DNA of 64,000 nucleotides from Alphaproteobacteria bacterium. GTDB lineage: Bacteria; Pseudomonadota; Alphaproteobacteria; Caulobacterales; Parvularculaceae. This document shows positions 10,897 through 32,864 of the stretch, one piece after another. The stretch covers positions 1-64,000 of the forward strand of contig WGLT01000009.1 in assembly GCA_016125425.1 (NCBI GenBank), given 5' to 3'. A program made the translations under genes and the position numbers. The notes under the pieces are model-generated. The model did not search any database. It was not told the origin of the DNA and saw nothing but the letters and a program-made list of their open reading frames with translations. The stretch's first letter is position 1. Each line of letters starts with the position of its first letter.

Positions 10897-11540
10897 CCAT
10901 CAACCATCATCCCAGCGACGAAACGCTGATGCGTATGGCGGCCGGGACGCTGGGCGCCGGTCCTGCCCTCGTCGTGTCGGTCCACCTTGAACGATGTGCG
11001 GTGTGCCGCGAGCAGATAGCGAATTTCGAAGCCGTTGGCGGTGCGATTCTTGATGCGATGCCGCTCGCCCCACTTGCTGCCGATCTTTTTGCACGCACCC
11101 TGGAGCGGCTTGAGACCCCTCCAAAGCCGGCCAGAGAGAAGACTTTGGGTAAACACGCGGAATTGGGAATAGAGCTTCCGCGGGCGGTGCGGAATTGTGA
11201 GGTTGGTCCCTGGAAGTGGCTGGGTCCGGGATTCATGTGGAGCAAGATCAAGATAGCCGGCAGCCCGGATGCAAAGGTGATGCTGCTCAAGGGAAAGGCG
11301 GGACTTCATCTTCCGGCCCACGGCCATACCGGCCTCGAGTTCATGCAAGTGCTATCCGGCTCACTATCGGACGAACGCGGTCAGTATTTTCCCGGCGATC
11401 TCGATGAAGCTGGAGAAGACGTCGATCATCGGCCGATTGTGGGGGAAGACTCTGAATGCATCTGCCTGGCCGCTCTTGAGGGCGACACACGCCTTCATGG
11501 ACTATTGGGCCGCCTATTGCGCCCGATCGTGGGCTTCTGA
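10893..11540 (+). CDS. chrR: ChrR-type zinc anti-sigma factor with cupin domain
   Basis: A 215-residue two-domain anti-sigma factor. The N-terminal ZAS domain has H6, H31, C35 and C38 (HLERCAVC), the same positions that bind zinc in R. sphaeroides ChrR. The C-terminal cupin domain has H143, H145 and E149 (PAHGHTGLEF) and H179 (DVDHRP), equivalent to the second zinc site shifted by two residues. ChrR holds RpoE inactive and releases it when singlet oxygen or certain organic hydroperoxides appear; the cupin domain is needed for that response. All zinc ligands are kept, so a working sensor is expected. The ATGA overlap with rpoE ensures matched synthesis. Confidence 0.95.
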   Translation: MTINHHPSDETLMRMAAGTLGAGPALVVSVHLERCAVCREQIANFEAVGGAILDAMPLAPLAADLFARTLERLETPPKPAREKTLGKHAELGIELPRAVRNCEVGPWKWLGPGFMWSKIKIAGSPDAKVMLLKGKAGLHLPAHGHTGLEFMQVLSGSLSDERGQYFPGDLDEAGEDVDHRPIVGEDSECICLAALEGDTRLHGLLGRLLRPIVGF

Positions 11541-11555
11541 TCATGGCTGCTTGAA

Positions 11556-16802: not shown

Positions 16803-18242
16803 TCACCCGTCCATATGCTCCAGTTCGACGCCCTTGGTCTCGCGGACCATCGCCCGGACGAAGAAGACCGAAATGACGGCGAAGGCCGCGTAGATGGCGT
16901 AGGCGCCGGCAAGCGTGATGGTCGTCAGGAGGATGGGGAAGGTCATCGTGACCAGGAAATTGGTTCCCCACTGGAACAGGCCTGAGACGGCGAGCCCGGA
17001 GCCGCGAATCTGGTTGGGAAACATCTCGCCGAGCATAACCCACATCACCGGCCCCCAAGAGAAGTTGAAGAGGGCGACATAGGCGACCGCCGACAGCAAG
17101 GCGAGCTTGCCGAAGAGGGGCGGCAGCGTCACCGCGCCGCCTGCGCCGACCTGGGCGTTGAGGAAGGCGACGGCCATCAGCGCAAGGGTCGCCGACATGC
17201 CGAGCGAGCCGATCAGCAAAATGGGTTTGCGTCCATGCAGGTCGATCACCATGAGCGTGACCGCGACAGCAAGGATCGAAACCCCGCCCATGATGACATT
17301 GGTGAGAAGCGCGTCGCTCTCCGAGAAGCCGACCGACTGCCACAACACCGCGCCGTAATAGAACACGACATTGATGCCGACGAGCTGCTGGAACGAAGCA
17401 AGGCCGATCCCGACCCAGACGATTGTCCTGATACGCTTCGTCGCCGGATTGATGAGGTCCGAAAAGCGCGGCCGATGATGGTCGGCCGCAAGCGAAGCCT
17501 CGATTTCGCTGACCTTTTGCGCGGCGGCGCGCTCGCCGAACAGTCGCGCCAGCACCGCCTTCGCCGCGTCCTTGCGTCCTTTGAGCGCGAGAAAGCGCGG
17601 GCTCTCGGGGATCGTCAGCAGGGCGAGAAAGAAGATCGCAGCGGGCGCGATCTCCATCCAATACATCCAGCGCCAAGCCTTGAAGCCGAGCCAGAAATCG
17701 GCCGTCGCCGAGCCGGCGAAAAGCGCGAGCAGATAGTTGCTGATGAAAGCCGCCGTGAGGCCGACAATAATCGCGACTTGCTGGATGCTGGACAGGCGCC
17801 CCCGCAGCCGCGCCGGAGCCACTTCGCTGATATAGGCAGGCGCGAGCACGCTCGCCGCGCCGACCGCCAGCCCGCCGATAATCCGGTAGATGACGAATTC
17901 AAGCGAGCCGTTAGCGACGCCCGATCCCCATGCGCTGACGATAAAGAACACCGCTGCGACGATAAGTATGCTCCGCCGGCCGAAAATGTCGGCGAGGCGA
18001 CCGGCAAAAAACGCGCCCGCCGCGCAGCCCAGCAGCATGGAGGCGACATTGAAGCCCGTTCCCACATTTGTCGAATGAAAGGCCTGCCTTAGTCCGTCGA
18101 CGGTGCCGTTGATCACCCCGCTGTCGAAGCCGAACAGAAATCCGCCGATCGTCGCGATCAGGCTGATCAGTATGATCGCGCCGAGATTCATTTCCTGCAA
18201 AGAGGCAGCCGATTCGGCGGATGCGCTTGGAGTGGATGACAT
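16803..18242 (-). CDS. Sugar porter family MFS transporter (xylose/glucose-H+ symporter type)
   Basis: A 479-residue 12-helix transporter of the sugar porter family. Signatures are GFLFGFDSGVINGT in helix 1, GRLADIFGRRSIL in loop 2-3, PAYISEVAPARLRGRLSS, IPESPRFLALKGR before the central loop, QQLVGINVVFYY in helix 7 and EMFPNQIRGSG. It would import a monosaccharide into the cytoplasm by proton symport. It starts 101 bases after the GH43 gene on the same strand behind AAGGA, so it is the last gene of the TonB-receptor operon. It would take up the sugar released in the periplasm. The exact sugar (glucose, xylose or another) cannot be fixed. Confidence 0.9.
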   Translation of the reverse strand: MSSTPSASAESAASLQEMNLGAIILISLIATIGGFLFGFDSGVINGTVDGLRQAFHSTNVGTGFNVASMLLGCAAGAFFAGRLADIFGRRSILIVAAVFFIVSAWGSGVANGSLEFVIYRIIGGLAVGAASVLAPAYISEVAPARLRGRLSSIQQVAIIVGLTAAFISNYLLALFAGSATADFWLGFKAWRWMYWMEIAPAAIFFLALLTIPESPRFLALKGRKDAAKAVLARLFGERAAAQKVSEIEASLAADHHRPRFSDLINPATKRIRTIVWVGIGLASFQQLVGINVVFYYGAVLWQSVGFSESDALLTNVIMGGVSILAVAVTLMVIDLHGRKPILLIGSLGMSATLALMAVAFLNAQVGAGGAVTLPPLFGKLALLSAVAYVALFNFSWGPVMWVMLGEMFPNQIRGSGLAVSGLFQWGTNFLVTMTFPILLTTITLAGAYAIYAAFAVISVFFVRAMVRETKGVELEHMDG

Positions 18243-18343: not shown

Positions 18344-20200
18344 TTACAGTCCCGAACGACGAGCTTCGTCTGAGTCGGCCGATATTCGCCTGATCGGGCT
18401 GAGTTTGGAAACGCCGCTGGCGTTGAACGCTTCGACCGCGACGTAATAGGGCGCGCCCTTGTTGAGCGAGGTGAGTTCCAGCGCCGGATGAGACGGATCG
18501 GCGAGCTGGTCTGCGAATTTCTGGTAGGTGAAGGTCAGCCGATCGGGACGCACGCCCCACCGAACATTGTAGCCGATTGCGCCCGCGCTCGCCGACCATT
18601 GAATATGCGCGTTCCGCGCGTCCGCTTCGCGTCGGGCGTCGATGCGCGCAGGGGCGGGCGGGGCCGCGCCCCCCGCATTGCCGAATATGCGAATTTCGGC
18701 GATCGCGAGGTGGGCGGCGCCGACATGGCCGTGCGCGTAACGGACAAAGCGGGCGCGGACCGGGCGGGGCAACTCGAAATAGGCGTTGGGCCGGTCGCGG
18801 CGCGGCGGTTTGGTGCGGGCGATCTCGCGCCAGCTCTTTCCGTCTTCGGACGCTTCGAGATGAAAGTCGGCGTAGATATCGGGGGCGTCGGCGAATCGGG
18901 CCGATTTGTAATCGGCGAAATCGACCTGGATCGCGCGGAGAGTCTGGACCGATCCGAGATCGATCGTCAGCGTTTCGCCGGGTTTGTTGTCGCGGGCGAC
19001 CCAGAAGGTCTGATAGTTATCGTCTGTCACATGGCTCGCGGCGAACTCGCCCAGCGTTGATGATGCGGTCGCGGGCTTTTTGTAGCTCAGCAGCATCCAG
19101 CCGGTGAACAGGCTCTCCGGATCCTTGACCCGCCGCCTGGGAACATAGTGGGGGAAATCTCCGAACCGCGTCGACGCCGCCATTTGTCCGTCGGGCCAGA
19201 AGCGCGTCGGAAATATGGCGACGCGGCGCTCGAATTTCCAATTGTAACCGACCCACGGCGTGCCCGAATTCCACCAATTTCCATAGTTGTCCTGAAAGGT
19301 TGATCCGTGGCCCGCGCCGACGACAAATCCGCCCGGCTTGTAGCTTACCGGATTCCATGGCGCGTAGGTGAAAGGTCCGAGCGGCTGGTCGCCGACATAG
19401 GCGCCGTTCGCGTAGACGTTGAACTCGGTCCCAGGCGCCGCATACTGAAGATAATAACGGCCGTTGACCTTGGTCATCCAGGCTCCCTCGATATAGGGAT
19501 CCACGGCTTGGCCAGCGGCGTCCTTGCCGTCATGATCGCGGCCGAATCGCTCCCAGCCATGCTCGTCCGGATTGAGGGCGATTAACGGTTCGGGGCGCGT
19601 CTCGTAGACGAGCCGGCGGTCGTCAAAGGCGATCTTTTGCCCGTAGATCGGGAAGACATTTGATGAATCCCAATAGAGATACCATTGGCCGTCGTCATCC
19701 TTGAACAGCGCCGGATCCCACGGCCCGGGCGGAACTTCGCCCGGCTTCATTGCGGCGGACGGCTTGTCGACCGAACCGGGGAGGGGCGGCATCCTCCGTA
19801 CGAGGAAATCCAGCTTGCCGGTATCAGGCGCGGTCGTCTCCAGGATCGATCCCGGCTTCATCATCGCCGGCATAAGGACAAGCTTTTCGCCGTCCGCCCA
19901 CGCAGCGGGAGCCACCATGGAGTGAAACGGCCAGCGGCTGGGCTTGACGAAGCGCCAGTTGATAAGGTCGGTCGAGCGCCAATAGCCGTCCGCGAGCGTG
20001 AGGAAAAGATAATAGGCGCCGTTGAAATTGACGATCGCCGGGTCCGCTCCCGTGCGGTAGGAAACGCCGCTGTTGATCTGCTCGAAATTGTAGCGGTAAT
20101 CGAGATCGATCGGATTGGCGTAGGTATGCGGCGTCGCTCCGGCGCTGGCGCCGCCGGGCGCAAGCGCGGCGAACGCTGCGGCGATACTCAACAATCTCAT
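18344..20200 (-). CDS. Secreted GH43-type glycoside hydrolase with discoidin and fibronectin-III-like domains
   Basis: A 618-residue exported enzyme. Residues 1-20 are a signal peptide (ending GGASA). A five-bladed propeller region follows, with TGADPAIVNFNGAYYLF carrying the likely base D53, PWDPALFKDDDGQWYLYW, and EGAWMTKVNGRYYLQY with a candidate acid Glu. Residues of about 375-505 form an F5/8 type C (discoidin) sugar-binding module (PATASSTLGEFAASHVTDDN, TIDLGS). The C-terminus is fibronectin-III-like. GH43 enzymes are inverting arabinofuranosidases, xylosidases or galactosidases. The start overlaps the DUF6445 stop (ATGA). It probably trims side chains of the polysaccharide handled by this locus; the specificity is unknown. 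Confidence 0.82.
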   Translation of the reverse strand: MRLLSIAAAFAALAPGGASAGATPHTYANPIDLDYRYNFEQINSGVSYRTGADPAIVNFNGAYYLFLTLADGYWRSTDLINWRFVKPSRWPFHSMVAPAAWADGEKLVLMPAMMKPGSILETTAPDTGKLDFLVRRMPPLPGSVDKPSAAMKPGEVPPGPWDPALFKDDDGQWYLYWDSSNVFPIYGQKIAFDDRRLVYETRPEPLIALNPDEHGWERFGRDHDGKDAAGQAVDPYIEGAWMTKVNGRYYLQYAAPGTEFNVYANGAYVGDQPLGPFTYAPWNPVSYKPGGFVVGAGHGSTFQDNYGNWWNSGTPWVGYNWKFERRVAIFPTRFWPDGQMAASTRFGDFPHYVPRRRVKDPESLFTGWMLLSYKKPATASSTLGEFAASHVTDDNYQTFWVARDNKPGETLTIDLGSVQTLRAIQVDFADYKSARFADAPDIYADFHLEASEDGKSWREIARTKPPRRDRPNAYFELPRPVRARFVRYAHGHVGAAHLAIAEIRIFGNAGGAAPPAPARIDARREADARNAHIQWSASAGAIGYNVRWGVRPDRLTFTYQKFADQLADPSHPALELTSLNKGAPYYVAVEAFNASGVSKLSPIRRISADSDEARRSGL

Positions 20201-20940
20201 GAACGGTCGGCCTCCAATTGCACGAAAAAATTGCCGGTCAGCCGGCCGGTCCGGGGATCGGGGCTGAGCGAGGCGGTTGGCGGAATGAGCCCGGAGTGAA
20301 GCAGGCTTCCTTGATAGATCAAAGTTCGTCCCGGGCGCGCGTCGATTGCAAGGAGCAGTTCGTAATGCGGATCATCCGCGCCGACATAGCCGGCGTCCGG
20401 ACTCTGTCGGCGCGCATCGGCGGTCGCGGCGGCGACAAAACCTCCGGCATTCGCGTCGGTGACCTGTTCAACGCCGGTCGATTTGTGGCGGAAGAAGCCG
20501 GTGCCGCCGCCGTCTGGAACATTGAGATAGTGCAGAACCGCCAAGAGATCCGGATCTGTCGAGTCGAAATGCGGCGCGCGCTGCTGATGGTCGAGCAGAG
20601 ACGGCGCGCGCGTCACCATTGAAAAACTCGCTTCGAGGACGCGAAAGCTGTCGCGCCCGAAGGCGCCGGCGATAAAGGGCGCAGCGGCGTTCATGAGCGT
20701 GCGAACATAGCTGTCGGCTGTTTCATTCGGCGCGATCACCCGTCGAAGGCCGGGATAGTTGTTTGCGGCGCAGGGGAACGGCGCGAGGCTGGCGGCCAGA
20801 TCGATGACGGACTCTATGCCCTCGATGAGTCCGTCAATAACCGCGACGGGATGACCGCCTCGCCCGATCCGATGCAGTTTCGCGCATGGCGAGGTTGAGG
20901 TGCGGGGCGCGGCGTGGGAGGAGTCGCCCGCGCCCCGCAT
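20197..20940 (-). CDS. DUF6445 family protein
   Basis: About 247 residues, cytoplasmic. Motifs are HPVAVIDGLIEGIESVIDLAASL, NNYPGLRRV, HFDSTDPDLLAVLHYLNVP, GGTGFFRHKSTG and IYQGSLLHSG. The H-x-D and late His pattern resembles 2-oxoglutarate/Fe(II) dioxygenase-like folds, although no activity is established. DUF6445 genes recur next to TonB-dependent receptors and tryptophan-halogenase-like genes, exactly as here. The frame is open to a GTG at 20979 overlapping the receptor gene; ATG 20940 behind GAGGAA is preferred. The stop overlaps the GH43 start. The role in the sugar locus is unknown. Confidence 0.75.
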   Translation of the reverse strand: MRGAGDSSHAAPRTSTSPCAKLHRIGRGGHPVAVIDGLIEGIESVIDLAASLAPFPCAANNYPGLRRVIAPNETADSYVRTLMNAAAPFIAGAFGRDSFRVLEASFSMVTRAPSLLDHQQRAPHFDSTDPDLLAVLHYLNVPDGGGTGFFRHKSTGVEQVTDANAGGFVAAATADARRQSPDAGYVGADDPHYELLLAIDARPGRTLIYQGSLLHSGLIPPTASLSPDPRTGRLTGNFFVQLEADRS

Positions 20941-20959
20941 TTCCTCAGCGGGAATGTCG

Positions 20960-23959
20960 TCAGAAACTGTATCTGACACCGGCCTGGAACTGCCGGGCGT
21001 CGTTTCCGACCTGGCTGTCCTCGATGAGCGGAGGCGGCGAGCCGCCGCCGGCGCCCCACGACGAGTAATTGCGGTTCAGCCAATTGAAGACGTTGAACAC
21101 CTCGAAGTCGAAAGCGAGCTCATTGCCCCAAGGCGTCTTGATTGTTTTCTCCAGACGAAGATCGAGGCGCTTATAGGCGATGAACGGTTTCGGATAGAAG
21201 ACGCCGCCCATCTTGGCGTAGCAGCAAGCCCCGTCAGGCGCCTGCAATGAGCTGTTCCATGGCGCGATGATGTTGCCGAACGCAGGGCCGGATGACAGGG
21301 TGAGCTGGCCTGACAGGACGACGTTCCACGGCGCGCGATATTCGCCGCTTGTCACCAAGCGGTATTTTTCCACGCCGTTGACCCAGCCCCATCCATAGGC
21401 GGTTTGGGACGGGCCATTGTAAAACTCGTCTGAATTCAGCTCCTGCTGATCGTTGGTTCGCGCAAGTTGGAAGGTGAGCGCCGACTGCAATCCCCAGATG
21501 CTGTCATCGGTGAATGGCTTGTCGACCTTCAGATAGATGGCGTTATAGACGGCTTTGCCGTCGCTCCGTCCGACGTTCAGCTTGCCGGAGAAACCGGGCA
21601 GCACGCCGCCTCCGGCTGGACAGCCGGGATAGGTTGTGTTCGAAATATTGTCCTGGATCCAAGTGTCTCCGCCGTCGGTGCATCCAATTACGTTGCCCAT
21701 CGAATCAAACTGAAGGAAGCGCGTGTACCAACCATTGGTGTAGAAGTTCGCGCGCGTGAACTGGAAGATTCGATGCGAAATGACATGAGAGTAGGTGATT
21801 GAAGTGGTGACTTCGCCGAAGCGGTGGCGAATGCCGAAATCGAACTGATCTGAATACGGCATGCGCGTCTTGTTGTTGAGCACCCAGACAGGACCGCCTG
21901 TTCCCGCGCCTTGCAGAAATGTCCGCAAGGCCTCCGGATCGGTGCAATAGGCTGGCCCCGATCCGCTGGCGCAGACGCCGCCGAAATCATACGTCACGAC
22001 ATTATTGCTATTGGTCAGCGTCTCGATGACGCCCTCTATAAACAGCGAACGGTCAAAATAGCGGCCGGCGCCGCCGAAGAGCACGGTTTGGTCGTCGCCG
22101 TTGACGTCATAGGAGAAGCCTATGCGCGGCTGGAATTCGTCATATTCGGGCTTGCGGTTATTGCCGGTCGAGATGTAATCCGCCGGGTCGATCCCCCGAG
22201 CCTGCCAGCCTTGGTAGTTCTGCAGCGCCGTGACAATCGCCGCCGGCGTCACATATTTGTTGTTGTTGGCGTTTGTTTCGAAATCCCATCTCAGGCCGGC
22301 GTTGATCGTCCAATGCTCGTCGGGGCGCCACTCGTCTTCCACATAGAAGCCGAGCTGGATATCCTTTCCCGCAACGGTCGGAGTCGGGGCGATATTAATT
22401 CTGGCGCCATAAGGAATCGTCGGATCGAAACTGCCGCTCGGCCCCGGATTGTAGAAATAATAGCTGCCGTTGAAATGGTCGTTGACCGTTCGCGACAGAT
22501 TGAGCCGAACGACCTGAAAACCTGACTTCAGCGTATGCTGGCCGAAGAGCCAGGTAGCATCGTCTTTCACTGTCCATGTTTTTTGGCTGTCGCCCTGCTC
22601 GAAGAAGTGCGCGCCCAGCAGGGCGAGACTGTCAAACGTATCGGGCGAGGGATCGCTCGCCTGCGTCGACGAGATCACATATTCCGGCCCTGTTCCGACG
22701 CTCGGAGTCGACTGCGTTCCCTTGTCGTAGGACACGTTGAGAGAGTTCAGGAAGTCGCCTGAGGCGTGACGCCAGGTAAGCTGGTAACGGTTTTCATGCG
22801 TCAGGATAGTTCGCCCATGCGACGGCGCCGCATTGGCGTCGATATCGCTGAGATTGTTCTCGCGGCGAATGAACGCGCTGAAGTTGACCGTATCGTCAGG
22901 CGAGGCGAACCAGGTCAGCTTTCCGAAGTAGAGCCCTTGATGAAAGTCGAAATTATGCGGCACTTCGATCTGCGAGGTGATCGACGTCGGCAAGTTGTTG
23001 CCCGTCGGCAGATTGCCGGTTGTCGCCGGCAGATTCTCAATCGTGCCTTCGCCCGCGACGTAGAAGGTCAGCTTGCCGGGGATGATCGGTCCGCCGAGTT
23101 CGCCGCCGAACTGCTTGCGGCTGTAAGTCGGCTTAGGAACATTGTTACGCTTGTCGAAATATGGCTGCGTTATGAATTTGTTGGGCTGATATTCGAGAAA
23201 AGCGGAGCCGTGCAGCTCGTCGCCGCCGGTTTTGGTGACGGCGGAGAGCAGCGCAGATCCGGCTTGTCCCGTTTCGGCGCCGAAGTTCTGCGTGACAACC
23301 TGATATTCCTGAATTGCGATTTGAGGGAAGGGATTGCCGAGCCCGAAATTCTGGCCGAACACGCCGCCATGGTTGATCGGGTTTTTGATGCTGATCCCGT
23401 CGAGCAGCACGTTGACGTTCGACGCGCTGACCGCGCCAGCCTGAATTTGCGCCGTCCCGCCGCGCGTGACTGTGACGCCTGGCGCCAAAGCGGCGAAGCT
23501 CAGAAAGTTACGCTGGTTCTGCGGCAATGTCTGGATTTGAGCCGGCGTGATGTTGGTCGAAACCGCTGACGTGCGAACGCCGATCGTTTGGCGCTGGCCA
23601 GTGACGACGATGCTTTCGCCTGAAGCGTCCGTCTCCGTCGTAAAATTCAGAATGGCGGTCTGGCCGACGAGAAGCGTCGTGTTTTGCGCGCCCTTGCCGG
23701 CGACGCTGACCGAATAGGACGACGGACGCAAACCGAGAATTCGGTAATTGCCCGACTCATCGACCGTTCCGACCGCCTTTCGGCCGGTATGGGTGTCGAT
23801 CGCAATGACCTGGGTGCCGGCCGGCGCCCCGTCGACATGGCCTTCCAAAGCGGCGGTGTCGGTTTGCGCAAACGCCGGCGAGGCCAAGCCCAATGCAATC
23901 GCCAAAGCCGTCGCGGATACGCCCTTCTGGAACCGATTACATCTCGAGTGTCGAGACAT
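20960..23959 (-). CDS. TonB-dependent outer-membrane receptor (Oar-like, carbohydrate locus)
   Basis: A 999-residue outer-membrane transporter. There is a signal peptide (cleavage after AFAQ near residue 32), then a carboxypeptidase-regulatory-like domain (GTVDESGNYRILGLRPSSYSV, residues about 60-85). The plug begins near SIVVTGQRQTIGVRTSAV and includes NVNVLLDGISIKNP. A long beta-barrel follows and ends in the outer-membrane signature GVRYSF. Such receptors import oligosaccharides with energy from TonB-ExbBD. It is the first gene of an operon with DUF6445, GH43 and an MFS porter. A LacI-type operator overlaps its -35 region, so it should be repressed until sugar is present. Confidence 0.92.
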   Translation of the reverse strand: MSRHSRCNRFQKGVSATALAIALGLASPAFAQTDTAALEGHVDGAPAGTQVIAIDTHTGRKAVGTVDESGNYRILGLRPSSYSVSVAGKGAQNTTLLVGQTAILNFTTETDASGESIVVTGQRQTIGVRTSAVSTNITPAQIQTLPQNQRNFLSFAALAPGVTVTRGGTAQIQAGAVSASNVNVLLDGISIKNPINHGGVFGQNFGLGNPFPQIAIQEYQVVTQNFGAETGQAGSALLSAVTKTGGDELHGSAFLEYQPNKFITQPYFDKRNNVPKPTYSRKQFGGELGGPIIPGKLTFYVAGEGTIENLPATTGNLPTGNNLPTSITSQIEVPHNFDFHQGLYFGKLTWFASPDDTVNFSAFIRRENNLSDIDANAAPSHGRTILTHENRYQLTWRHASGDFLNSLNVSYDKGTQSTPSVGTGPEYVISSTQASDPSPDTFDSLALLGAHFFEQGDSQKTWTVKDDATWLFGQHTLKSGFQVVRLNLSRTVNDHFNGSYYFYNPGPSGSFDPTIPYGARINIAPTPTVAGKDIQLGFYVEDEWRPDEHWTINAGLRWDFETNANNNKYVTPAAIVTALQNYQGWQARGIDPADYISTGNNRKPEYDEFQPRIGFSYDVNGDDQTVLFGGAGRYFDRSLFIEGVIETLTNSNNVVTYDFGGVCASGSGPAYCTDPEALRTFLQGAGTGGPVWVLNNKTRMPYSDQFDFGIRHRFGEVTTSITYSHVISHRIFQFTRANFYTNGWYTRFLQFDSMGNVIGCTDGGDTWIQDNISNTTYPGCPAGGGVLPGFSGKLNVGRSDGKAVYNAIYLKVDKPFTDDSIWGLQSALTFQLARTNDQQELNSDEFYNGPSQTAYGWGWVNGVEKYRLVTSGEYRAPWNVVLSGQLTLSSGPAFGNIIAPWNSSLQAPDGACCYAKMGGVFYPKPFIAYKRLDLRLEKTIKTPWGNELAFDFEVFNVFNWLNRNYSSWGAGGGSPPPLIEDSQVGNDARQFQAGVRYSF
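23929..23940. promoter_or_regulatory. Possible auxiliary LacI operator inside the receptor gene
   Basis: GGAACCGATTAC differs in one base from the 12-bp operator core GTAACCGATTAC found at the two main sites. It lies in the first codons of the receptor gene, 133 bp from the main operator. It could support a repression loop, or be chance. Confidence 0.4.
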
Positions 23960-24046: not shown

Positions 24047-24075
24047 ACTATGCTCAATCTTGTAATCGGTTACAA
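24047..24075 (-). promoter_or_regulatory. Promoter and LacI-type operator of the TonB receptor operon
   Basis: A palindrome TTGTAA-N4-TTACAA (24060-24075) contains, on the minus strand, the core GTAACCGATTAC. The same 12 bases occur between lacI and the GH3 gene. On the minus strand TTGTAA (24070-24075) and CATAGT (24047-24052) are 17 bases apart and form a plausible -35/-10 pair. A bound repressor would therefore cover the -35 box. Confidence 0.75.
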
Positions 24076-24127: not shown

Positions 24128-25696
24128 TCAGCCCCTTTTGATCGGCGCCCCGATCGCCTCTTCAAGCCGGCTCTCGCGCTCCGGCAGGCGAGCGATGAAG
24201 GCCCCGTGATCGGGCATTCCGGCGACGATTTCGGCGATGGTTTCCGCTATGTCGCTGAGATAGCCGGCCAATTGCCCGTCATCGACGAAACGGGCGACCG
24301 GGTCGGCCTTCGCCGCCAGTCCCTGGCCGAGAAGCACCTGGACCCAGCTTTCCTCGGCGAAGAGCTCCAGCTTGCTGCGCCCGAAAAACCTGGCCGAGGA
24401 TTGAAAAAGCGCCAGACGCTGGGCCAGCGAGTCCGGGATGGCCATTTCGCGCACATAATCCCAGAAAGCTTCGCCCCGCCTGCGCGTGACCTTGTAATGG
24501 GCGATGATGAAGTCGCGAATGTCCTCATATTCGAGCCGCGTCTGCGCGTTGAATTCATCGATATCGGCCTGGCGAAAGCCCTGCGCGGGAAACAAGGCCA
24601 GCAGTCTGTGAACGGCGGTCTGGATCAAGTGAATGCTCGTTGACTCGAGCGGTTCGAGAAAGCCGCTGGAAAGTCCGATCGCGACGACATTCTTGCGCCA
24701 GGCCTCGATCCGGCGCCCCGGACGGAACCGCACGGGCCGCGGATCGGCCAACGCCTTCGAGTCGAGCCCGCCCAGAAGCGTCGCCGCCGCTTCGTCGTCG
24801 CTCATCAGTTCGGCCGCATAGACGAGCCCGTTGCCGATGCGATGTTGCAGCGGAATGCGCCATTGCCAGCCTGCTTTGCGCGCGGTCGAGCGCGTATACG
24901 GAGTAAGAGGCGCGACGCGTTCCGACGGAACCGCCAGCGCGCGGTTGCAAAGTAGCCATTGATTCCAGTCTTCATAGCCGACGCCGAGCGCGCCCTCGAT
25001 GAGCAGGGCGCGCATGCCGGAACAGTCGACAAACAGATCGCCGCCGATGCGGCGCCCATCCGAGAGAACAAGCGATTCGACGAAGCCTGAATCGCTATCC
25101 GTGACGACCTCGACGATCCTTCCTTCGATTCTTTCGACGCCGCGCCCTTCACATTCGCCGCGAAGAAATCTTGCGAATAAAGACGCGTCGAAATGATAGG
25201 CGAAATCAAGGTCCGCAAGCGGAGAATTGACTGCGCGGACGTCCTGAAAACGAAAACGGTTGCTGAGCGCAGCGCGGCAGTTAATCGAATAATTATCGAA
25301 ATGTTCGACCTTCAGGCCTCTTTCCCTGGCGGCGAGCCAAAGCTGATGGGCGTGCAGCCAGAGCATGTCGCGGCCGATCCGGCCGAAACCGTGAATGTAG
25401 GACTCGCCAGGCGCGCCCCAATCGACAAACTGAATGCCGAGCTTGAAGGTCGCCATGCTCGCGTGAAGCATGCGCAACTGGTCGACGCCCGCCAGCGCCA
25501 TATAATTTCGGATGTGAGGGATCGTCGCTTCGCCGACGCCCACAATTCCGATTTCGTCGGATTCGACGAGCCGAACCGTGACCTGACTTAGCAGTTTCGA
25601 CAGGACCGCCGCCGTCATCCAGCCGGCCGTGCCGCCGCCGACGATCGTGACTTCGCGAACCGGATCGTCCGTCCGCCTCATGTGAGAATCGGCCAT
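24128..25696 (-). CDS. Flavin-dependent tryptophan-halogenase-like enzyme
   Basis: A 522-residue FAD enzyme. It has the nucleotide fold VTIVGGGTAGWMTAAVL (residues 16-32), GVGEATIP, and K85 in FKLGIQF, equivalent to the catalytic lysine (K79) of PrnA/RebH. It also has the halogenase block GWQWRIPLQ (WxWxIP) and LEPLESTSIHLIQ with the catalytic Glu-Ser region. All residues needed for halide oxidation to hypohalous acid are kept. Members of this branch sit beside TonB-dependent receptors, and some brominate indoles in vitro; their natural substrate is unknown. It lies 21 bases after the GH144-like gene on the same strand, so it is co-transcribed with lacI. No flavin reductase gene was seen nearby. 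Confidence 0.87.
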   Translation of the reverse strand: MADSHMRRTDDPVREVTIVGGGTAGWMTAAVLSKLLSQVTVRLVESDEIGIVGVGEATIPHIRNYMALAGVDQLRMLHASMATFKLGIQFVDWGAPGESYIHGFGRIGRDMLWLHAHQLWLAARERGLKVEHFDNYSINCRAALSNRFRFQDVRAVNSPLADLDFAYHFDASLFARFLRGECEGRGVERIEGRIVEVVTDSDSGFVESLVLSDGRRIGGDLFVDCSGMRALLIEGALGVGYEDWNQWLLCNRALAVPSERVAPLTPYTRSTARKAGWQWRIPLQHRIGNGLVYAAELMSDDEAAATLLGGLDSKALADPRPVRFRPGRRIEAWRKNVVAIGLSSGFLEPLESTSIHLIQTAVHRLLALFPAQGFRQADIDEFNAQTRLEYEDIRDFIIAHYKVTRRRGEAFWDYVREMAIPDSLAQRLALFQSSARFFGRSKLELFAEESWVQVLLGQGLAAKADPVARFVDDGQLAGYLSDIAETIAEIVAGMPDHGAFIARLPERESRLEEAIGAPIKRG

Positions 25697-25717: not shown

Positions 25718-27121
25718 TCAGGCGACGAGCCAACCGCCCTGAAATCCGGCGCGTCGCAGGCCCCGGCGGATTCGGGGATCGCGGCGCATGACGCGCCACA
25801 CCGCATCGCGTCGATAATTCGCGATCATCGCCAGAATCGCGCCCTGATCGATGCCAAGATGGTCGCGCGCCACCCAGCCGTGAATCGGGTCGATCGAGCC
25901 GGCGCGAGCCTTGAGAGAAGGGTCGCGCACGCTTGGGTTAAAGCTGTCGGCGAAGCCGTAGCGCCGGTAAAGCCCCGGCCAGGCGGCGAGCGCCCGCGCG
26001 GCGGGCGCCACGATTTCAGGCGCGAAAGGCAGCGAAGCGAGCGCCGCAGTCGGCGCCAGCGTTCCGTCGTCAAAGCCGTCCGGTTCTCCGATCGGTCCGC
26101 GTGCGGAATAGCCGCGGATTTTTCGCACCGCGCCCGAATGGCGCAGTTTCAATGCGCCGGGCCCGTCGCAGGCGGTCAAGCCCCAGATCGTCCCGGAATA
26201 GCCGTCCCAGCCCAGCGGGTTGGCCATGCAGTAGGCGCGATTCGCTATGGTCGCCCGCCGGCTGTTTTCGAAATAGTCGAATCCCGCCTCACGATTGACG
26301 GCGTCCCATATGCCGCGAAAATCGAACCACACATGGCTGTATTGATGGCCGAACAGCGGCGCGAATGCGATGCGTCGCGTGGCGCCCGCGCCGCGCCAGC
26401 ATGCGCCGATCGTGTGCGTCCAAGCCTCCCAGGCGCCGTCTTCGACCGCATGGTCATGCGAGCCCAGCGCCAGAAGCGGGACCATCATCCCTTCATTGTA
26501 GGCGGTCCAGCCACGTTCGATAAAACCGGTTTCGGGGCGCCAGCCCATCGATACGTCGCCGCGACCGCGCTGGAACCAGCGCCAGTCGGCCCGTTCTACG
26601 ATGCGGCTGGCGAGACGCCTGATTTCGGCTTCGTCCGGATGCGGAGCGTCGAACCAGCCGGCGGCGAAGATCATGCCGAGAAACAAGATGGCCGAATCGA
26701 CGCTCGAAAGTTCGGACCGTTTGTAACGCAGCCCGGTATCGAGATGCAGGAAGTGATAGAAAAATCCGTTGGCGCCCGACGCATTGACGGGATCCTCGCC
26801 CTGCGGCGCGGAATCGAAGAAGCGTAATGTCGCCAGCGTGCGCCGGCGGGCGTCGGCGCGGCTGATCCAGCCGCGTTCGACCCCGATCGGGTATGCGGTC
26901 AGCGCAAATCCGACCGCCGCGATCGAGCAGGGGCCTTCGCCGGGCCAGCGGTCCGGCGTCAGGCCGTTGTCGTCCCGGCTGAGATTCCAGAAAAAATGGA
27001 AAGTGCGGCGTTCAATGTCGTCGATCAGCGACGCGAACGCCGGCGGCTTCGACATCGCGCCGGCGGCGCCCAGCGCGGGAATCGCGGCGAGCCCGGCGAT
27101 CGTTCGGCGACGCGTAATCAT
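25718..27121 (-). CDS. Exported glucoamylase-family protein (GH144-like endo-beta-1,2-glucanase candidate)
   Basis: A 467-residue protein with a twin-arginine-type leader (RRRTIAGLAAIPALGAAGA). The (alpha/alpha)6-type domain shows RRTFHFFWNLS, SIAAVGFALTAYPIGVERGW, ELSSVDSAILFLGMIFA, GWTAYNEGMM, FGHQYSHVWFDFRGIWDA, WGLTACDGPGA and DDGTLAPTAALASLPFAPE. This is the Glycoamylase (PF10091) family, whose characterised members include GH144 endo-beta-1,2-glucanases. The start overlaps the lacI stop (ATGA), so it is translated with the regulator. It probably cuts the backbone glucan in the periplasm. Family assignment is strong, linkage specificity is inference. Confidence 0.85.
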   Translation of the reverse strand: MITRRRTIAGLAAIPALGAAGAMSKPPAFASLIDDIERRTFHFFWNLSRDDNGLTPDRWPGEGPCSIAAVGFALTAYPIGVERGWISRADARRRTLATLRFFDSAPQGEDPVNASGANGFFYHFLHLDTGLRYKRSELSSVDSAILFLGMIFAAGWFDAPHPDEAEIRRLASRIVERADWRWFQRGRGDVSMGWRPETGFIERGWTAYNEGMMVPLLALGSHDHAVEDGAWEAWTHTIGACWRGAGATRRIAFAPLFGHQYSHVWFDFRGIWDAVNREAGFDYFENSRRATIANRAYCMANPLGWDGYSGTIWGLTACDGPGALKLRHSGAVRKIRGYSARGPIGEPDGFDDGTLAPTAALASLPFAPEIVAPAARALAAWPGLYRRYGFADSFNPSVRDPSLKARAGSIDPIHGWVARDHLGIDQGAILAMIANYRRDAVWRVMRRDPRIRRGLRRAGFQGGWLVA

Positions 27122-28152
27122 GCCGGGCCGCCCAGTGTGCTGGCTCGAGCGACGAGTTCGAGCGGCTGGTTGTGGGCGGTCGGCCCGATCTGGCCGTTCT
27201 TGATCATCGCGACGAGGCGGTTGACGGCGTCCGAACCGATTTCGGCGACGTGCACGCGGATGGTCGACAGTCCGAGGTGGCGTGCGAGCGGAATGTCGTC
27301 GAACCCGATCACGGCGACGTCTTCGGGAATGCGCAGGCCGTGCGCGCGAAGCGCCTCCATCGCGCCGATCGCCATCATATCGTTCGCCGCCATCAAGCCG
27401 TCGAAACTATCGCCGCGCTTCAGCCAGTTTTCGACCGCCCGCGCGCCGCTGTCCTCTCTGAAATCCCCGATCGCGATGAGCGGTTCGGCCGCGCCCGCTT
27501 TCGTCACGGCCTCGACGAATCCGTCGCGGCGCTGGCGCGCGTCGAAATTGTTTTCATGACCCATAATATGAGCGAGGCGTCGCCGGCCTATGTTCAGGAG
27601 GTGGCGCGCGCCCATAGCGCCGCCGGCGCGATTGTCGATGCCGATGGACGGCCTGTCAGCGCTCGCTTCGCTGATCACTTCGACGCCCGGCAGCTCTGCG
27701 GGCATGAGCGCATCGATCGTTTCGCGCGAGAGCTGCGGCGCCATCACGATCACCCCGTCGACGCGGCCGCGCATCACCGCCAGCGCCTGGCCGGCGAGCG
27801 CCGGGTCGGCGTGCATCGTCGACAGCAAAAGCAGATAGCCGTGATCGCTGGCGGCCTTGTCCATCCCGCGGATGAGCTCGGAGAAGAATTCGCCGTAAAG
27901 ATCGGGCAGAACCACGCCGAGCGTGCCCGTCTTTGCATTCGACAGGCTCCGCGCTGCGGCGTTGGGCACATATTGCAGATCGGCGATGGCGCGCATGACG
28001 CGTCCGCGAGTCTCCTCGCGAATATTCTCGTGTCCGTTGAGTGCGCGCGATACGGACGCCACCGATACGCCGGCGCGCCGCGCCACGTCGCGGATGGTAG
28101 CGGGCCGTTGTTTCACTTCTTCTCTTCTTCGCCGCGTTTTTAACACCGCCAA
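27118..28152 (-). CDS. LacI-family transcriptional repressor of the carbohydrate locus
   Basis: A 344-residue regulator: N-terminal helix-turn-helix ATIRDVARRAGVSVASVSRAL (18-38) and hinge helix YVPNAAARSLS. The periplasmic-binding-protein-like sensor domain has TGTLGVVLPDLYGEFF, GIDNRAGGAMGARHL and VAVIGFDDIPLARHLGLSTI. It would bind an oligosaccharide or sugar and leave its operator. It is divergent from the GH3 gene. The 12-bp palindrome between them (28193-28204) and its copy before the TonB receptor are the probable binding sites. The gene heads an operon with the GH144-like and halogenase genes, so it is likely autoregulated. Confidence 0.93.
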   Translation of the reverse strand: MAVLKTRRRREEVKQRPATIRDVARRAGVSVASVSRALNGHENIREETRGRVMRAIADLQYVPNAAARSLSNAKTGTLGVVLPDLYGEFFSELIRGMDKAASDHGYLLLLSTMHADPALAGQALAVMRGRVDGVIVMAPQLSRETIDALMPAELPGVEVISEASADRPSIGIDNRAGGAMGARHLLNIGRRRLAHIMGHENNFDARQRRDGFVEAVTKAGAAEPLIAIGDFREDSGARAVENWLKRGDSFDGLMAANDMMAIGAMEALRAHGLRIPEDVAVIGFDDIPLARHLGLSTIRVHVAEIGSDAVNRLVAMIKNGQIGPTAHNQPLELVARASTLGGPA

Positions 28153-28190: not shown

Positions 28191-28206
28191 ACGTAACCGA
28201 TTACAT
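28191..28206. promoter_or_regulatory. LacI-type operator between lacI and the GH3 gene
   Basis: ACGTAACCGATTACAT holds the core GTAACCGATTAC (28193-28204), identical to the core in front of the TonB receptor. It is 41 bases upstream of the lacI ATG and 27 bases upstream of the GH3 ATG. It can therefore control both divergent operons. Confidence 0.75.
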
Positions 28207-28230: not shown

Positions 28231-30516
28231 ATGAACCAAGGGCGGGTATCGCGACGGACATTGCTGGCGGGAGCAGGGGCCGCTCTTGCATGGTCGGCGT
28301 CGCCGCTGCGGGCGATGCTGCAACAGGCCGAGGCCGAGGCCGGTCCGGCGACGCGCAGGTCGATAGCGGCGTTAATCAAAGAGATGACTCTGGAGGAGAA
28401 GGCCGGCCAGCTGACATTGATGCCGGCCGCCTGGAGCGGGGGCGTTGCGACCGATCTCAATCCGCCCGGGGCGGACAATAATTTCACCAAGCAAATCGCC
28501 GCGGCGGTCGCGGGCGACCTCACCGGCGTGTTCAACGGCAATGGCGCGGCGATGGCCTTGCGCATGCAGCGCGCGGTGATGGAGCGATCGCGCCTGAAGA
28601 TTCCATTGCTGTTTGCGGCCGACGTCATCCACGGCTATCGCACGATCTTTCCGGTCGGCGTCGGAGAGGCCGCCAGCTTCGAGCCGGCGCTCGCGGAGCG
28701 CACCGCCCGGATCGCCGCATTCGAAGCGTCGGGCGCCGGAATCGATTGGACCTTCGCGCCCATGGTCGACATCGCGCGCGATCAGCGATGGGGCCGCACG
28801 ATGGAGGGCGCCGGCGAGGACGTGCTGATCGGCCGGCTGTTCGCGGCCGCGCGTGTTCGAGGATTTCAGGGAAAAAGTCTTGCGCGCGACGACACGCTGA
28901 TGGCTTGCGTCAAGCATTTCGCAGCCTATGGGGCGGCCGAAGCCGGTCTCGACTACAATAGCGTCGACATGTCCTTGCCGCGGCTGGTCGAAATCTATCT
29001 TCGCCCCTACCGCGCCGGAATCGATGCGGGGGCAGGCTCTGTGATGACCGCGTTCAATGAGCTCAACGGCGTTCCCTCGACCGGCAATCACTGGCTGCAG
29101 ACCGAAGTGCTTCGCGACGATTGGGGTTTTGAGGGATTTGTGGTCAGCGACTACACGAGCGACGAGGAGATGATCGCCGCCGGGTTCGCCGCCGACCGGC
29201 GCGAGGCGGCGCGGATCGCGTTCCTCGCCGGAGTCGACATGTCCATGACGTCGGGCGTTTATCGGGAGCATTTGCCCGGTCTGGTGCGAGACGGGCTCGT
29301 CAGCGAGGATCAACTCGACCGCTCGGTCCGCAGAGTGCTGGCCGCCAAGGCCGCGCTCGGATTGTTCGATGATCCCTTCCTCAGGATCGACCCCGCGCGC
29401 GAAAAGAAACGCAGCCGCCTGCCGTCGAGTCTCGCGCTTGCGCGCGAGGCGGCGCAGAAATCGATCGTGCTCGTCCGGAATGAGGGCGACCTGCTGCCGC
29501 TTTCCCCGAAAACGAAACTCGCGTTGATCGGGCCGTTCGTACGGGACGGACGCGATATCAACGGCCCATGGGTGGTTTACGGCGACAACGGACAATCCGT
29601 CGATCTCGCGGTCGGATTGAAGAATGCGGGCGCTGATTTTTCGATGACGCTCGGAAGCGACGTCGAGGCGCCGATCCCCGGCGGGATCGAGGCGGCGGTC
29701 GCCGCTGCGCGCGCCGCCGACGTGGTGTTGCTGGCGATTGGCGAAAGCGAACGCATGTCCGGCGAGGCGCAATCTCGCAGCGAAATCGTTCTGCCTGCGC
29801 CGCAACAGGCGTTGGCCGAGGCCGTAGCGCAAACCGGCAAGCCGATCGTGGTCATTCTTCGAAACGGCCGCGCGCTCGCTCTTCACGGCGCGGTCAAAAA
29901 CGCGCCGGCGATTCTCGTCACCTGGTTTTTGGGTTCGGAAAGCGGCAACGCGATTGCGGACGTGCTTTTCGGCAAGGTCTCTCCGTCCGGTCGCTTGCCG
30001 GTCAGTTTTCCGCACGAAAGCGGGCAAGAGCCTTATTATTACGCGCATAAGAGCACAGGCCGCCCGAACCCGCCGGGACCGCTGCAGGAATACAAGGCGC
30101 ACTACCGCGAGACGGCGAACAATGCGCTATTCCCGTTCGGCCACGGCCTGACCTATGGAAAGATCAGCTATTCGGATCTCGCGCTGTCGGCGAAGCGTCT
30201 CTCCGGCGGGTCGATCGAAGTCGCTGCGACCATCCGCAATTCCGGGTCTCGCGCCGCGGTCGAAACAGTCCAGCTTTACACCCATCAGCGCGTCGCCAGC
30301 ATGACGCAACCGGTGCGCCAATTGCGCGCATTCCGGAAAATCGCGCTTGGCGCGGGAAAGGCGAAGACGGTGCGGTTCGTTTTGACCGGCGAAGACCTCG
30401 CATTCGTCAACGGCGCCGGAAAGTGGGTGCGCGAGGCCGGCGTGATTGACGTGTGGATAGCGCCGAACGCAGAAGCGGAAGGCGTACACGGAACTTTTGA
30501 CTTTGCGCCCGCATGA
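28231..30516 (+). CDS. Exported GH3 beta-glucosidase (BglX-like)
   Basis: A 761-residue glycoside hydrolase family 3 enzyme. Residues 1-35 are a twin-arginine-like leader (RVSRRTLLAGAGAALAWSAS). The (beta/alpha)8 domain has FAADVIHGYRTIFPVGVGEAA, ACVKHFAAYGAAEAGLDYN and VVSDYTSDEEM, with D307 as the nucleophile. The second domain has ARKSIVLVRNEG-like and GESERMSGEAQSR blocks, and a fibronectin-III-like C-terminus ends near SKLS-type loops. It hydrolyses beta-linked gluco-oligosaccharides in the periplasm. It is the first gene of the rightward operon under the LacI operator; its stop overlaps the GH31 start (ATGA). Confidence 0.92.
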   Translation: MNQGRVSRRTLLAGAGAALAWSASPLRAMLQQAEAEAGPATRRSIAALIKEMTLEEKAGQLTLMPAAWSGGVATDLNPPGADNNFTKQIAAAVAGDLTGVFNGNGAAMALRMQRAVMERSRLKIPLLFAADVIHGYRTIFPVGVGEAASFEPALAERTARIAAFEASGAGIDWTFAPMVDIARDQRWGRTMEGAGEDVLIGRLFAAARVRGFQGKSLARDDTLMACVKHFAAYGAAEAGLDYNSVDMSLPRLVEIYLRPYRAGIDAGAGSVMTAFNELNGVPSTGNHWLQTEVLRDDWGFEGFVVSDYTSDEEMIAAGFAADRREAARIAFLAGVDMSMTSGVYREHLPGLVRDGLVSEDQLDRSVRRVLAAKAALGLFDDPFLRIDPAREKKRSRLPSSLALAREAAQKSIVLVRNEGDLLPLSPKTKLALIGPFVRDGRDINGPWVVYGDNGQSVDLAVGLKNAGADFSMTLGSDVEAPIPGGIEAAVAAARAADVVLLAIGESERMSGEAQSRSEIVLPAPQQALAEAVAQTGKPIVVILRNGRALALHGAVKNAPAILVTWFLGSESGNAIADVLFGKVSPSGRLPVSFPHESGQEPYYYAHKSTGRPNPPGPLQEYKAHYRETANNALFPFGHGLTYGKISYSDLALSAKRLSGGSIEVAATIRNSGSRAAVETVQLYTHQRVASMTQPVRQLRAFRKIALGAGKAKTVRFVLTGEDLAFVNGAGKWVREAGVIDVWIAPNAEAEGVHGTFDFAPA

Positions 30517-32864
30517 AACGCATCAAATCGCTCGTCATTCTGATCTTGGCAATCTTGGTCTCGCCGGCCGCGGCGAGCGTCGTTCCCCTGCCTCACGGCG
30601 CGGAGGCTGCGTCGGGCGCGCGAAAGGTCCGCGTCACCGCGTTGCAGGACAACGTGCTCCACATCGAGATGACCGACGCCGCCGGCCATTGGCCGGAAGC
30701 GGCGAGTTGGGCGGTGCTGGCGAAGTCGCGCGCCGCTTCGGCGCCGGTGCGCGCCAGCGCCGGCGGTTTTGAGACGGACGCGTTGAAAGTGACGGTCGAT
30801 CCCTCGAGCCTTCGCCTGGCTGTCGAGCGGAAGGACGGCGGGACAATCATTGACGGCCTCGGCGGCGGCCCCGCGCCGTCGGGCGAGGGCGTCGTCGTCG
30901 ATGCCGAAATGCCGACCGGGCAACATATTTTCGGCATGGGCGACAAGACCGGCTCCATCGACCGCGCCGGGCGCAGTTTCATCGACTGGAACACCGACGC
31001 CTATAATTTCACCAGCAGCACCGATCCCCTGTACAAGTCGATTCCCTTTTTCATCGCCGCCGGGGCGGGACGGCAGCCTTATGGCCTGTTTTTCGATAAT
31101 ACGTTCCGTACACGGTTTGATTTCGGGGCGCGTAGGCCGGGGCGAATCGCGATCGACGCCGACGGCGGCCCGATCGATCTGTACCTGATCACGGGCCCCT
31201 CGATCGGGGATGTTGTTCGCGGTTATGTCTGGCTGACCGGCGCGGCGGCGATGCCGCCGCGATGGGCGTTCGGATATCAGCAGTCGCGCTGGAGCTATAT
31301 GAGCGAGGCGGAGGCGCGCCAGCTTGTCCGGCGCTTCGCCGACGAGCGGTTTCCCCTCGATGCTGTCTGGTTCGATATCGACTACCAGGATCGAAACCGT
31401 CCGTTCACGATTGACCGAAAGGCTTTTCCTCATTTCGAAAAGCTAATCGCCGATTTGAACAAGCAGGGCGTTCACTCGATACCGATCGTCGATCTGCATA
31501 TCGCCGCGGCGCCCGGCCAGGGATATGCGCCCTACGATTCCGGCGTCGCGGGCGATCATTTTGTGAAGCGCGCGGACGGGAAAACCTATGTCGCGCCGGT
31601 GTGGCCCGGCCCGTCTGTTTTTCCGGACTTTACGCAGGAGCGCACGCGGCGCTGGTGGGGCCGCATGTTCAAAATGTTCGCGGATATGGGCGTCGGCGGC
31701 ATCTGGAACGACATGAACGAGCCGGCGATCTTCGAAACGCCGTCGAAGACGATGCCGCTCGACAATCTGCATCGCATTTCCGGGGACGGATTCGCCCCGC
31801 GCACGGCCACGCACGCGGAAATCCATAATGTCTACGGCATGGAGAACAGCCGAGCGACTTTCGAGGGGCTGCTCGCATTGAGGCCGAACCAACGGCCCTT
31901 CGTGATGACGCGCGCCTCCTACGCCGGCGGCCAGCGCTATGCGACGACGTGGAGCGGCGACAACAGCTCGTCATGGGACCATCTCAAGCTCGCCGTTCAG
32001 CAGATGGAGAGCCTCGGACTGTCGGGATTTTCTTTCCCGGCCAATGACGTCGGGGGATTCACGGGCGGGCCGAGCCCCGAGCTTCTCACCCGCTGGTTCC
32101 AATATGCGGCGTTCATGCCCGTCTTTCGCGATCATAGCCAAAAGGGCGCGCCGCGCGCCGAGCCCTGGGTCGACGGCGAATCCGAACTCGCCATCCGCCG
32201 CCATTATGTCGAGGAACGCTACAGGCTGCTGCCCTATATCTATGCTCTCGCCGAGAAGGCGGGCCGGACTGGCGAGCCGATGATGCGCCCGCTATTCTAC
32301 GACTATCCGCAACTGCTCGACTCCGATTGCGATCAGTCGATGCAGTTCACGCTGGGAGGGCGCCTCTTGATCGCGGGAAATCCGCGCCCGGAATCGCCGC
32401 GCGACTATCAGGCCTGTTTGCCGGCGGGCGGGTGGTACGATTATTGGACGGGAAAGCCGGCGCCGACCAAGCGCCCGCTGATGATTACGCCCAGGCACGA
32501 AGTCTTGCCCGTATTTGTGCGCGCCGGTTCGATCATCCCGCGCCAGCCGTCTGTCATGCATACAGACGCCAAGCCTGACGGTCCGCTAGAGCTCGATATT
32601 TATCCGGGTCCGGACTGTTCGGGTGTTCTCTATGACGATGACGGCCGCTCGATAAAAGGAGACTTTCGGCGTCAAATCGTGACTTGCGCCGTTGACGCCG
32701 GCGGCGCCGTCACGGTGCGCTTTTCAAAGCCGGAAGGACGATTCAAGCCGTGGTGGCGCCAAATCGCCATTGTCGTTCATACCGAAAAGGGCGAGCGGCG
32801 CCGGATGATAGATGCGCCCAACGCTCCCATGACGGCAGTCATTCCGTCGATGCAGGCGCCATGA
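30513..32864 (+). CDS. Exported GH31 alpha-glucosidase/alpha-xylosidase
   Basis: A 783-residue GH31 enzyme with a signal peptide (residues 1-21, ending AAA). The N-terminal beta-sandwich has GQHIFGMGDKTG. The catalytic barrel contains PRWAFGYQQSRWSYMSEAEAR, DAVWFDIDYQDRNRPF and GIWNDMNEPAIF with nucleophile D400. It also contains TWSGDNSSSWDHLKLAVQ with the likely acid/base Asp, and GFSFPANDVGGF. The C-terminal beta domain has the usual VLPVFVRAGSIIP. It removes alpha-linked glucose or xylose. ATGA overlaps with both neighbours make a tight GH3-GH31-transporter operon. Presence of both alpha- and beta-acting enzymes points to a branched or mixed-linkage glucan. Confidence 0.92.
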   Translation: MKRIKSLVILILAILVSPAAASVVPLPHGAEAASGARKVRVTALQDNVLHIEMTDAAGHWPEAASWAVLAKSRAASAPVRASAGGFETDALKVTVDPSSLRLAVERKDGGTIIDGLGGGPAPSGEGVVVDAEMPTGQHIFGMGDKTGSIDRAGRSFIDWNTDAYNFTSSTDPLYKSIPFFIAAGAGRQPYGLFFDNTFRTRFDFGARRPGRIAIDADGGPIDLYLITGPSIGDVVRGYVWLTGAAAMPPRWAFGYQQSRWSYMSEAEARQLVRRFADERFPLDAVWFDIDYQDRNRPFTIDRKAFPHFEKLIADLNKQGVHSIPIVDLHIAAAPGQGYAPYDSGVAGDHFVKRADGKTYVAPVWPGPSVFPDFTQERTRRWWGRMFKMFADMGVGGIWNDMNEPAIFETPSKTMPLDNLHRISGDGFAPRTATHAEIHNVYGMENSRATFEGLLALRPNQRPFVMTRASYAGGQRYATTWSGDNSSSWDHLKLAVQQMESLGLSGFSFPANDVGGFTGGPSPELLTRWFQYAAFMPVFRDHSQKGAPRAEPWVDGESELAIRRHYVEERYRLLPYIYALAEKAGRTGEPMMRPLFYDYPQLLDSDCDQSMQFTLGGRLLIAGNPRPESPRDYQACLPAGGWYDYWTGKPAPTKRPLMITPRHEVLPVFVRAGSIIPRQPSVMHTDAKPDGPLELDIYPGPDCSGVLYDDDGRSIKGDFRRQIVTCAVDAGGAVTVRFSKPEGRFKPWWRQIAIVVHTEKGERRRMIDAPNAPMTAVIPSMQAP

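Follow-up and report, generated by a model that had tools for sequence, protein, structure and literature searches.

Results of our analysis indicate that the flavin-dependent halogenase encoded in the window, i.e., the whole stretch of 64,000 nucleotides that was analysed, is rather probably a standard component of those proteobacterial sugar loci that are organized around a TonB-dependent receptor (CUT loci), and that it serves the receptor and not the glycan. The position of its gene within a sugar locus, the core observation of the original prediction, is confirmed, and the overall interpretation of the locus given there is supported. Annotations of tryptophan halogenases near sugar loci of Caulobacter and Xanthomonas have been noted before, and both the CUT loci and the halogenase family are already known; as far as the literature searched shows, it is their link, as read from the sequences, that appears to be new. 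No description of a halogenase–TonB or halogenase–sugar link was found in this literature, which came mostly from outside subscription journals and included the accessible sections of PMC10919026, PMC11658791, PMC8269204, and PMC11340318 (papers given by PMC number are cited here and below for such sections). Table 1 of PMC11340318 contains one transposon insertion in a "tryptophan halogenase" gene, in a colony-morphology mutant of Sphingomonas sp. LM7.

The 522 aa ORF at positions 24128-25696 of the minus strand apparently represents an intact flavin-dependent halogenase. The Pfam profile Trp_halogenase (PF04820) covers residues 16-471 of its product (585 bits, E 1.4e-175), and all motifs that characterize the family could be located, namely, GxGxxG (GGGTAG, residues 20-25), the catalytic lysine (Lys85), WxWxIP (WQWRIP, 277-282), and Glu-Ser (Glu351-Ser352), of which K85, WxWxIP, and the Glu-Ser block had been correctly predicted. 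The corresponding residues of PrnA and RebH match these catalytic motifs. The best matches among proteins of solved structure are Xcc4156 (6y1w), 9luq, and BrvH (6frl), with scores of 466-482 bits and alignments that span nearly the whole protein, from residue 7-13 to residue 504-505; BrvH and Xcc4156 share the motifs of the window halogenase. PrnA, RebH, and other halogenases of free tryptophan belong to the same Pfam family, but the alignments with PrnA and RebH stop at residues 432-434, yet those with the tryptophan 5-halogenases 2wet and 2wes reach residue 502. Judging by the conserved residues and the solved relatives, the enzyme should be catalytically competent, and its location is likely to be cytosolic, as no signal peptide is discernible by eye and the FAD motif starts at residue 20. 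As noted originally, no flavin reductase is encoded nearby, at least as concerns the PF01613 family; the single member found genome-wide lies on a different contig.

The minus-strand genes of the locus are, in the order of transcription, those of a LacI-family regulator (27118..28152), a glycosidase of the PF10091 glycoamylase family (25718..27121), the halogenase, a TonB-dependent receptor with the OMP_b-brl_4 barrel (20960..23959), a DUF6445 protein (20197..20979), a GH43-like enzyme with an F5/8 type C domain (18344..20200), and a sugar porter family MFS transporter (16803..18242). Divergently, on the plus strand, they are accompanied by genes of a GH3 enzyme (28231..30516; BglX model over the cut-off), a GH31 enzyme (30513..32864), and a GPH-type sugar symporter (32750..34204), the last of which matches MFS_2 and scores below the cut-off of the NCBIfam gph model. 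The assignments are based on profile matches; that of the receptor was additionally made with PF00593 in a search of its own genome, while its CarboxypepD_reg-like N-terminus scores below the cut-off. The predicted order of glycosidase, halogenase, and TonB receptor in a LacI locus thus holds, but the glycosidase, described originally as GH144-like, is assigned by its profile to the PF10091 glycoamylases, and the naming of glucan as the polymer of the locus is a guess. No natural-product genes were found among the ten locus genes scanned with profiles, in agreement with the original prediction. A TonB receptor, degradative enzymes, an inner-membrane transporter, and a sugar regulator, all of which are present in the window locus, are also the components of the CUT loci of Xanthomonas and Caulobacter described in PMC1790865; the window locus differs in the addition of the halogenase and DUF6445 genes, and the word "halogenase" does not occur in the main text of that paper. 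Elsewhere in the window, a gene of an ECF-type sigma factor is followed by genes of a ChrR-type cupin, a hydrolase, a DUF1295 protein, and a cyclopropane-synthase-like protein (10243-14331). A MobA/MobL relaxase-helicase fusion is encoded at 878-3811, on the 291 kb contig shared with the sugar loci. The sigma factor/ChrR group is presumably an oxidative-stress regulon.

The palindrome TGTAAYCGRTTACA, of the LacI operator type, was found at three positions of the locus: a perfect match upstream of the receptor gene, between it and the halogenase gene (24061..24074), and two sites with one mismatch, one just inside the receptor ORF (23928..23941) and one between lacI and the GH3 gene (28192..28205). 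By chance, 0.06 sites with up to two mismatches would be expected in the window, and in the entire 2.87 Mb assembly the only three sites with up to one mismatch are those at the halogenase locus. The operator (up to one mismatch) is also present in 11 of the 14 loci of the window type that were scanned. Nine operator-bearing loci of this type have the halogenase gene at a position other than behind lacI and include its upstream region; the operator directly precedes the halogenase gene in six of them (L013-L018; two mismatches in five and one in one) and not in L010, L011, and L020. Outside the window-type loci, among those retrieved by then, single sites occur in three (L116, L162, and L168). 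As the operators are confined to the locus in this genome and recur in related loci, LacI most likely controls the halogenase gene along with the rest of the sugar locus, and the regulator may be expected to bind the predicted sites. The proposed co-transcription of the halogenase with the regulator fits the overlap of the LacI and glycoamylase genes and the 21 bp gap between the glycoamylase and halogenase genes, but, given the perfect operator between halogenase and receptor, the minus-strand genes are probably transcribed as two units that share a regulator, not as a single operon. A promoter scan performed no better than it did with shuffled sequences (5 versus 4.0).

Three halogenases were found in the genome, and all three are encoded inside TonB-receptor sugar loci. 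The second locus, of xylose type, comprises genes of LacI, an FGGY kinase, GH43, a receptor, SapC, Cupin_8, the halogenase, GH3, and GH115; the third, of starch type, comprises those of LacI, an alpha-amylase, a receptor, the halogenase, another alpha-amylase, and GH97. As PF00593 has 17 matches in 16 receptor genes of this 2.87 Mb genome, the chance that one halogenase would lie near a receptor is about 4%, a rough estimate for a reach of about 7 kb per receptor. Consecutive genes of receptor, SapC (PF07277), Cupin_8, and halogenase occur in the xylose-type locus L005 (9930-16782), and the same order is repeated in L169-L174 and L179. The predicted structure of SapC has a pLDDT of 39.5.

Among the nearest named loci (the best 80 of 307), which originate from Alpha-, Beta-, and Gammaproteobacteria as classed by their titles, HMMs built from the window locus and its sister loci detected a TonB receptor in 76, and in 74 of the 80 the receptor lies less than 400 bp from a halogenase (54 receptors of the starch type, 12 of the window type, and 8 of the xylose type). 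This is the outcome of the genomic survey on which the originally proposed halogenase–receptor link had been made to depend, and it bears the link out. The exceptions are L021 and L036, with receptors at 1.6 kb and 7.6 kb, L012, L056, and L068, in which the halogenases run to the contig end, and L043, in the 21 kb of which neither the HMMs nor tblastn with three receptors detected one. The latter is a starch-type locus with a halogenase and GH13 and GH97 labels. GH labels are present in 58 of the best 80 loci, and GH or LacI labels in 62. Twenty further neighbours, picked for Pfam analysis mostly from loci with no GH label, include two GH2 mannosidases, GH92, GH115, a dehydratase of the sugar-acid type, an FGGY kinase, and an MFS transporter, as well as an RNase, a phosphatase, and two proteins of no family. 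Hence, the sugar enzymes beside the halogenases differ, while the TonB receptor is their constant partner, in loci of starch, xylan, and mannan type alike. Aromatic groups of the glycan were considered as the halogenase substrate and set aside, as 33 of the best 80 loci carry GH13/GH97 labels and starch contains no aromatics.

The same linkage was found in a second sample, from the order. At least 80 of 120 genomes of the order have a PF04820 match, which is over the cut-off in at least 77, and in 17 halogenase loci picked among the matches listed for these genomes, a receptor is present in 15, two of them recognized only with an added fourth receptor HMM. Eight of these receptors lie within 400 bp of the halogenase, and seven are separated from it by about 1.9-2.0 kb that contain SapC and Cupin_8; of the two loci where no receptor was found, L175 and L185, the latter stops at the contig end. 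In L175, with no recognized TonB receptor in 15 kb, genes of a PRA isomerase (PF00697) and of a PALP-family protein reading like trpB lie about 5 kb from the halogenase gene (6881-8416). At least three kinds of receptor are linked to halogenases: OMP_b-brl_4, TIGR01782, and one with a Plug match only.

When the search was started from the receptor, homologs of the starch-type receptor of this genome were found in 48 of the 120 genomes of the order, its own included, and a search of 142 genomes of the class gave two matches only. Among 58 receptor neighbourhoods from the other 47 genomes, 46 contain a halogenase, which is less than 400 bp away in 41, and 12 do not, one of which (L135) is cut by the contig end. 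With the receptor of the halogenase-bearing L122, those of the halogenase-free loci L119 and L121 from the same genus share 95% and 94% identity, respectively. These LacI–receptor–GH3 loci, with the halogenase absent or present, offer a natural comparison. Such halogenase-free versions indicate that these loci can do without the enzyme, provided that its function is not supplied in trans by other copies; the genomes of L119 and L121 each have 10 other clear halogenase matches.

Halogenase genes also occur in tandem. A census of 276 halogenase genes over all sets revealed 18 four-gene and 7 three-gene arrays and 23 genes whose products lack both the catalytic Lys and the Glu. Such a dead copy is the second gene in 16 of the 18 four-gene and 6 of the 7 three-gene arrays (22/25; related species recur among the arrays, so they are not independent), e.g., L054:7026-8471, L058:6941-8470, L050:6940-8448, and L065:7003-8460. 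The remaining doubly dead halogenase is the second gene of one pair, and none of the 68 genes at other array positions is of this kind. Two of the three second genes outside this count have lost one residue, Lys in L048 and Glu in L055. Four dead copies align with the window halogenase over the full length at 23-27% identity, and two score 225 and 229 bits against PF04820, versus 585-649 bits for the three live enzymes of the genome. In a rooted tree, dead second copies do not form a single clade. From these sequences, we read the second array position as a conserved position of a pseudo-halogenase.

The DUF6445 protein encoded next to the receptor is a predicted 2OG-Fe(II) oxygenase. Its sole Pfam match is DUF6445 (PF20043), and in an alignment of 14 sequences H137, D139, and H228, which make up an HxD...H iron triad, are invariant, while the putative 2OG-binding R246 is present in at least 90%. 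Its predicted model (pLDDT 90.6) has the fold of 2OG-Fe(II) oxygenases: the first match was HygX in Foldseek (E 3.3e-6, TM 0.48) and OGFOD1 in VIA-align (Z 15.0, rmsd 3.1 over 184 residues), the latter closely followed by further matches, many of them tied, among which are lysyl and prolyl hydroxylases as well as PiuC (9qn4, Z 12.9). This fold match is common to many 2OG oxygenases and is not specific to the CciO/PiuC family. In 299 genomes of the phylum, PF20043 has 24 matches in 16 genomes, and 14 of the 23 neighbourhoods other than that of the window, several of which share a genome, contain a halogenase; the recurrence of DUF6445 with such halogenases was thus rightly anticipated. For strong matches (E <1e-50), a halogenase lies within about 7 kb in 13 of 19, whereas L162, L163, and L164 have a receptor and no halogenase, and L148, L151, and L154 have neither. 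The four weak matches (L165-L168) include one with a halogenase, 6.3 kb away. In the literature searched, mostly from outside subscription journals, no mention of DUF6445 was found.

In 47 starch-type loci, pairwise halogenase distances are more closely correlated with receptor distances (r 0.697, Mantel p 0.001) than with GH13 distances (r 0.187, p 0.014), the difference in bootstraps being 0.38-0.62, although the GH13 set may mix subfamilies, its largest distance being 2.3 against 1.4 and 1.1. In 21 loci, the correlation with GH97 reaches r 0.73, and the partial correlations with the halogenase are 0.47 for the receptor given GH97 and 0.28 for GH97 given the receptor. On the halogenase tree, the receptor family changes 17 times versus 49 in shuffles, and the glycan context 44 times versus 124. 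Since GH97 also correlates and the tree changes are alike for receptor and glycan, these data do not prove that the halogenase coevolves with the receptor alone.

A search for receptor residues that accompany the halogenase gave negative or uninformative results, the tests being weak because only a few genera are represented among the receptors without a halogenase. The six tryptophan columns present in more than half of 101 halogenase-adjacent receptors, or of the starch-type ones, are retained equally well or better, or almost so, in 12 halogenase-free ones (0.75-1.0). No conserved tryptophan is specific to halogenase-bearing receptors, and when five receptors from a single genus were compared, two of them halogenase-free, no W/Y/H/F column was halogenase-specific and all six tryptophans were common. 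The 67 starch-type receptors have 20 conserved W/Y/H/F/C/M columns, two of which (Tyr630 and Phe996, L007 numbering) are retained by less than half of a halogenase-free set, and both track lineage or locus type. The W, Y, H, and C contents do not differ, while the F content is higher with the halogenase (p 0.018, 67 versus 5 receptors, uncorrected). In the light of these negative tests and of the halogenase-free loci, modification of the receptor itself is possible though unsupported.

The best reading of these data, drawn by analogy, is that of a cytosolic oxidative accessory devoted to sugar TonB receptors, comparable to CciO, the cytoplasmic dioxygenase encoded next to the Caulobacter TonB receptor CciT and strictly required by it (PMC12004947, PMC12004943), although CciT protein is still made when CciO is absent (PMC12004947). 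The pairs CciT-CciO, PiuA-PiuC, and Fiu-YbiX resemble the window locus in that a TonB receptor is encoded beside an oxidative enzyme, but they concern iron, are Fur-regulated, and include no halogenase, CciO itself being none. Under the CciO-like reading, release of LacI would induce the halogenase together with the locus, the enzyme would work in the cytosol with FADH2 supplied by a reductase encoded elsewhere, and it would serve its cognate receptor rather than the glycan. DUF6445, as well as Cupin_8 and SapC of the sister loci, may form one set with the halogenase, and this set would be a sugar-receptor counterpart of the CciT-CciO arrangement. We infer that the halogenase is active and works for the receptor. 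As to the acceptor, an aromatic group in a receptor-linked peptide or protein is a tentative candidate, and so is a free small molecule. It is rather unlikely, though conceivable, that outer-membrane sugar receptors of proteobacteria have halogenases and 2OG oxygenases of their own in the cytosol, by which the receptor chain, or a peptide that partners it, would be tailored prior to export or in its course; the catalytically dead paralogues would then be their partners in multi-halogenase arrays.

The strongest alternative, plausible but short of probable, is that the halogenase modifies a free aromatic compound encountered by the cell during feeding, such as an indole, a phenolic, an inhibitor of plant or microbial origin, or a ligand produced by the cell itself, and so acts in detoxification or makes an antibiotic or a transported ligand; where the molecule is the receptor ligand, it overlaps with the CciO-like reading. 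Two of the nearest solved relatives, BrvH (PMC5945002) and Xcc4156 of Xanthomonas (PMC7336383), act on indoles in vitro, the halogenase is cleanly absent from loci whose receptors stay 94-95% identical, and the models proposed for CciO include making or oxidizing the receptor substrate or removing an inhibitor (PMC12004947). On the other hand, BrvH, which lacks tryptophan-binding residues, is only weakly active on indole and inactive on tryptophan, and indole as its native substrate is questioned by the authors who described it (PMC5945002). Natural-product genes are absent from the ten scanned, and since starch-, xylan-, and mannan-type loci are all linked, the molecule would have to be glycan-independent.

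Defence at the feeding site by released hypohalous acid or hydrogen peroxide would exploit a true intermediate of flavin halogenases, but this intermediate reaches the substrate site by way of a tunnel inside the enzyme (PMC11021962), the enzyme is probably cytosolic, and most tandem arrays hold one dead copy, which together make it very improbable. Equally improbable is a passenger gene, i.e., a natural-product halogenase that is mobile or in decay and plays no part in sugar use: 12 of the 58 receptor neighbourhoods do lack a halogenase and 22 of 227 copies lack the Lys, the Glu, or the first Trp, but Lys is retained in 206 and Glu in 208 of the 227, the losses are mostly at one fixed array position, and position and operators are conserved across Alpha-, Beta-, and Gammaproteobacteria as classed by titles.

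Halogenases of the BrvH/Xcc type have so far been studied as biocatalysts, and the words "TonB" and "receptor" do not occur in the main texts of the BrvH and Xcc4156 papers (PMC5945002, PMC7336383). Their genes lie beside those of sugar receptors, in loci that also encode a predicted oxygenase and a conserved pseudo-halogenase, and this suggests TonB-dependent sugar uptake as the process in which to look for their natural role. The linkage with the receptor points to a job in nutrient uptake and not in the making of natural products. The pairing joins the unexplained receptor–oxygenase pairs CciT-CciO and PiuA-PiuC, and the function is a common one, given the number of genomes of the order with PF04820 over the cut-off. 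If tailoring of the receptor is true, it would represent a nutrient-uptake function for halogenases and a system of post-translational halogenation.
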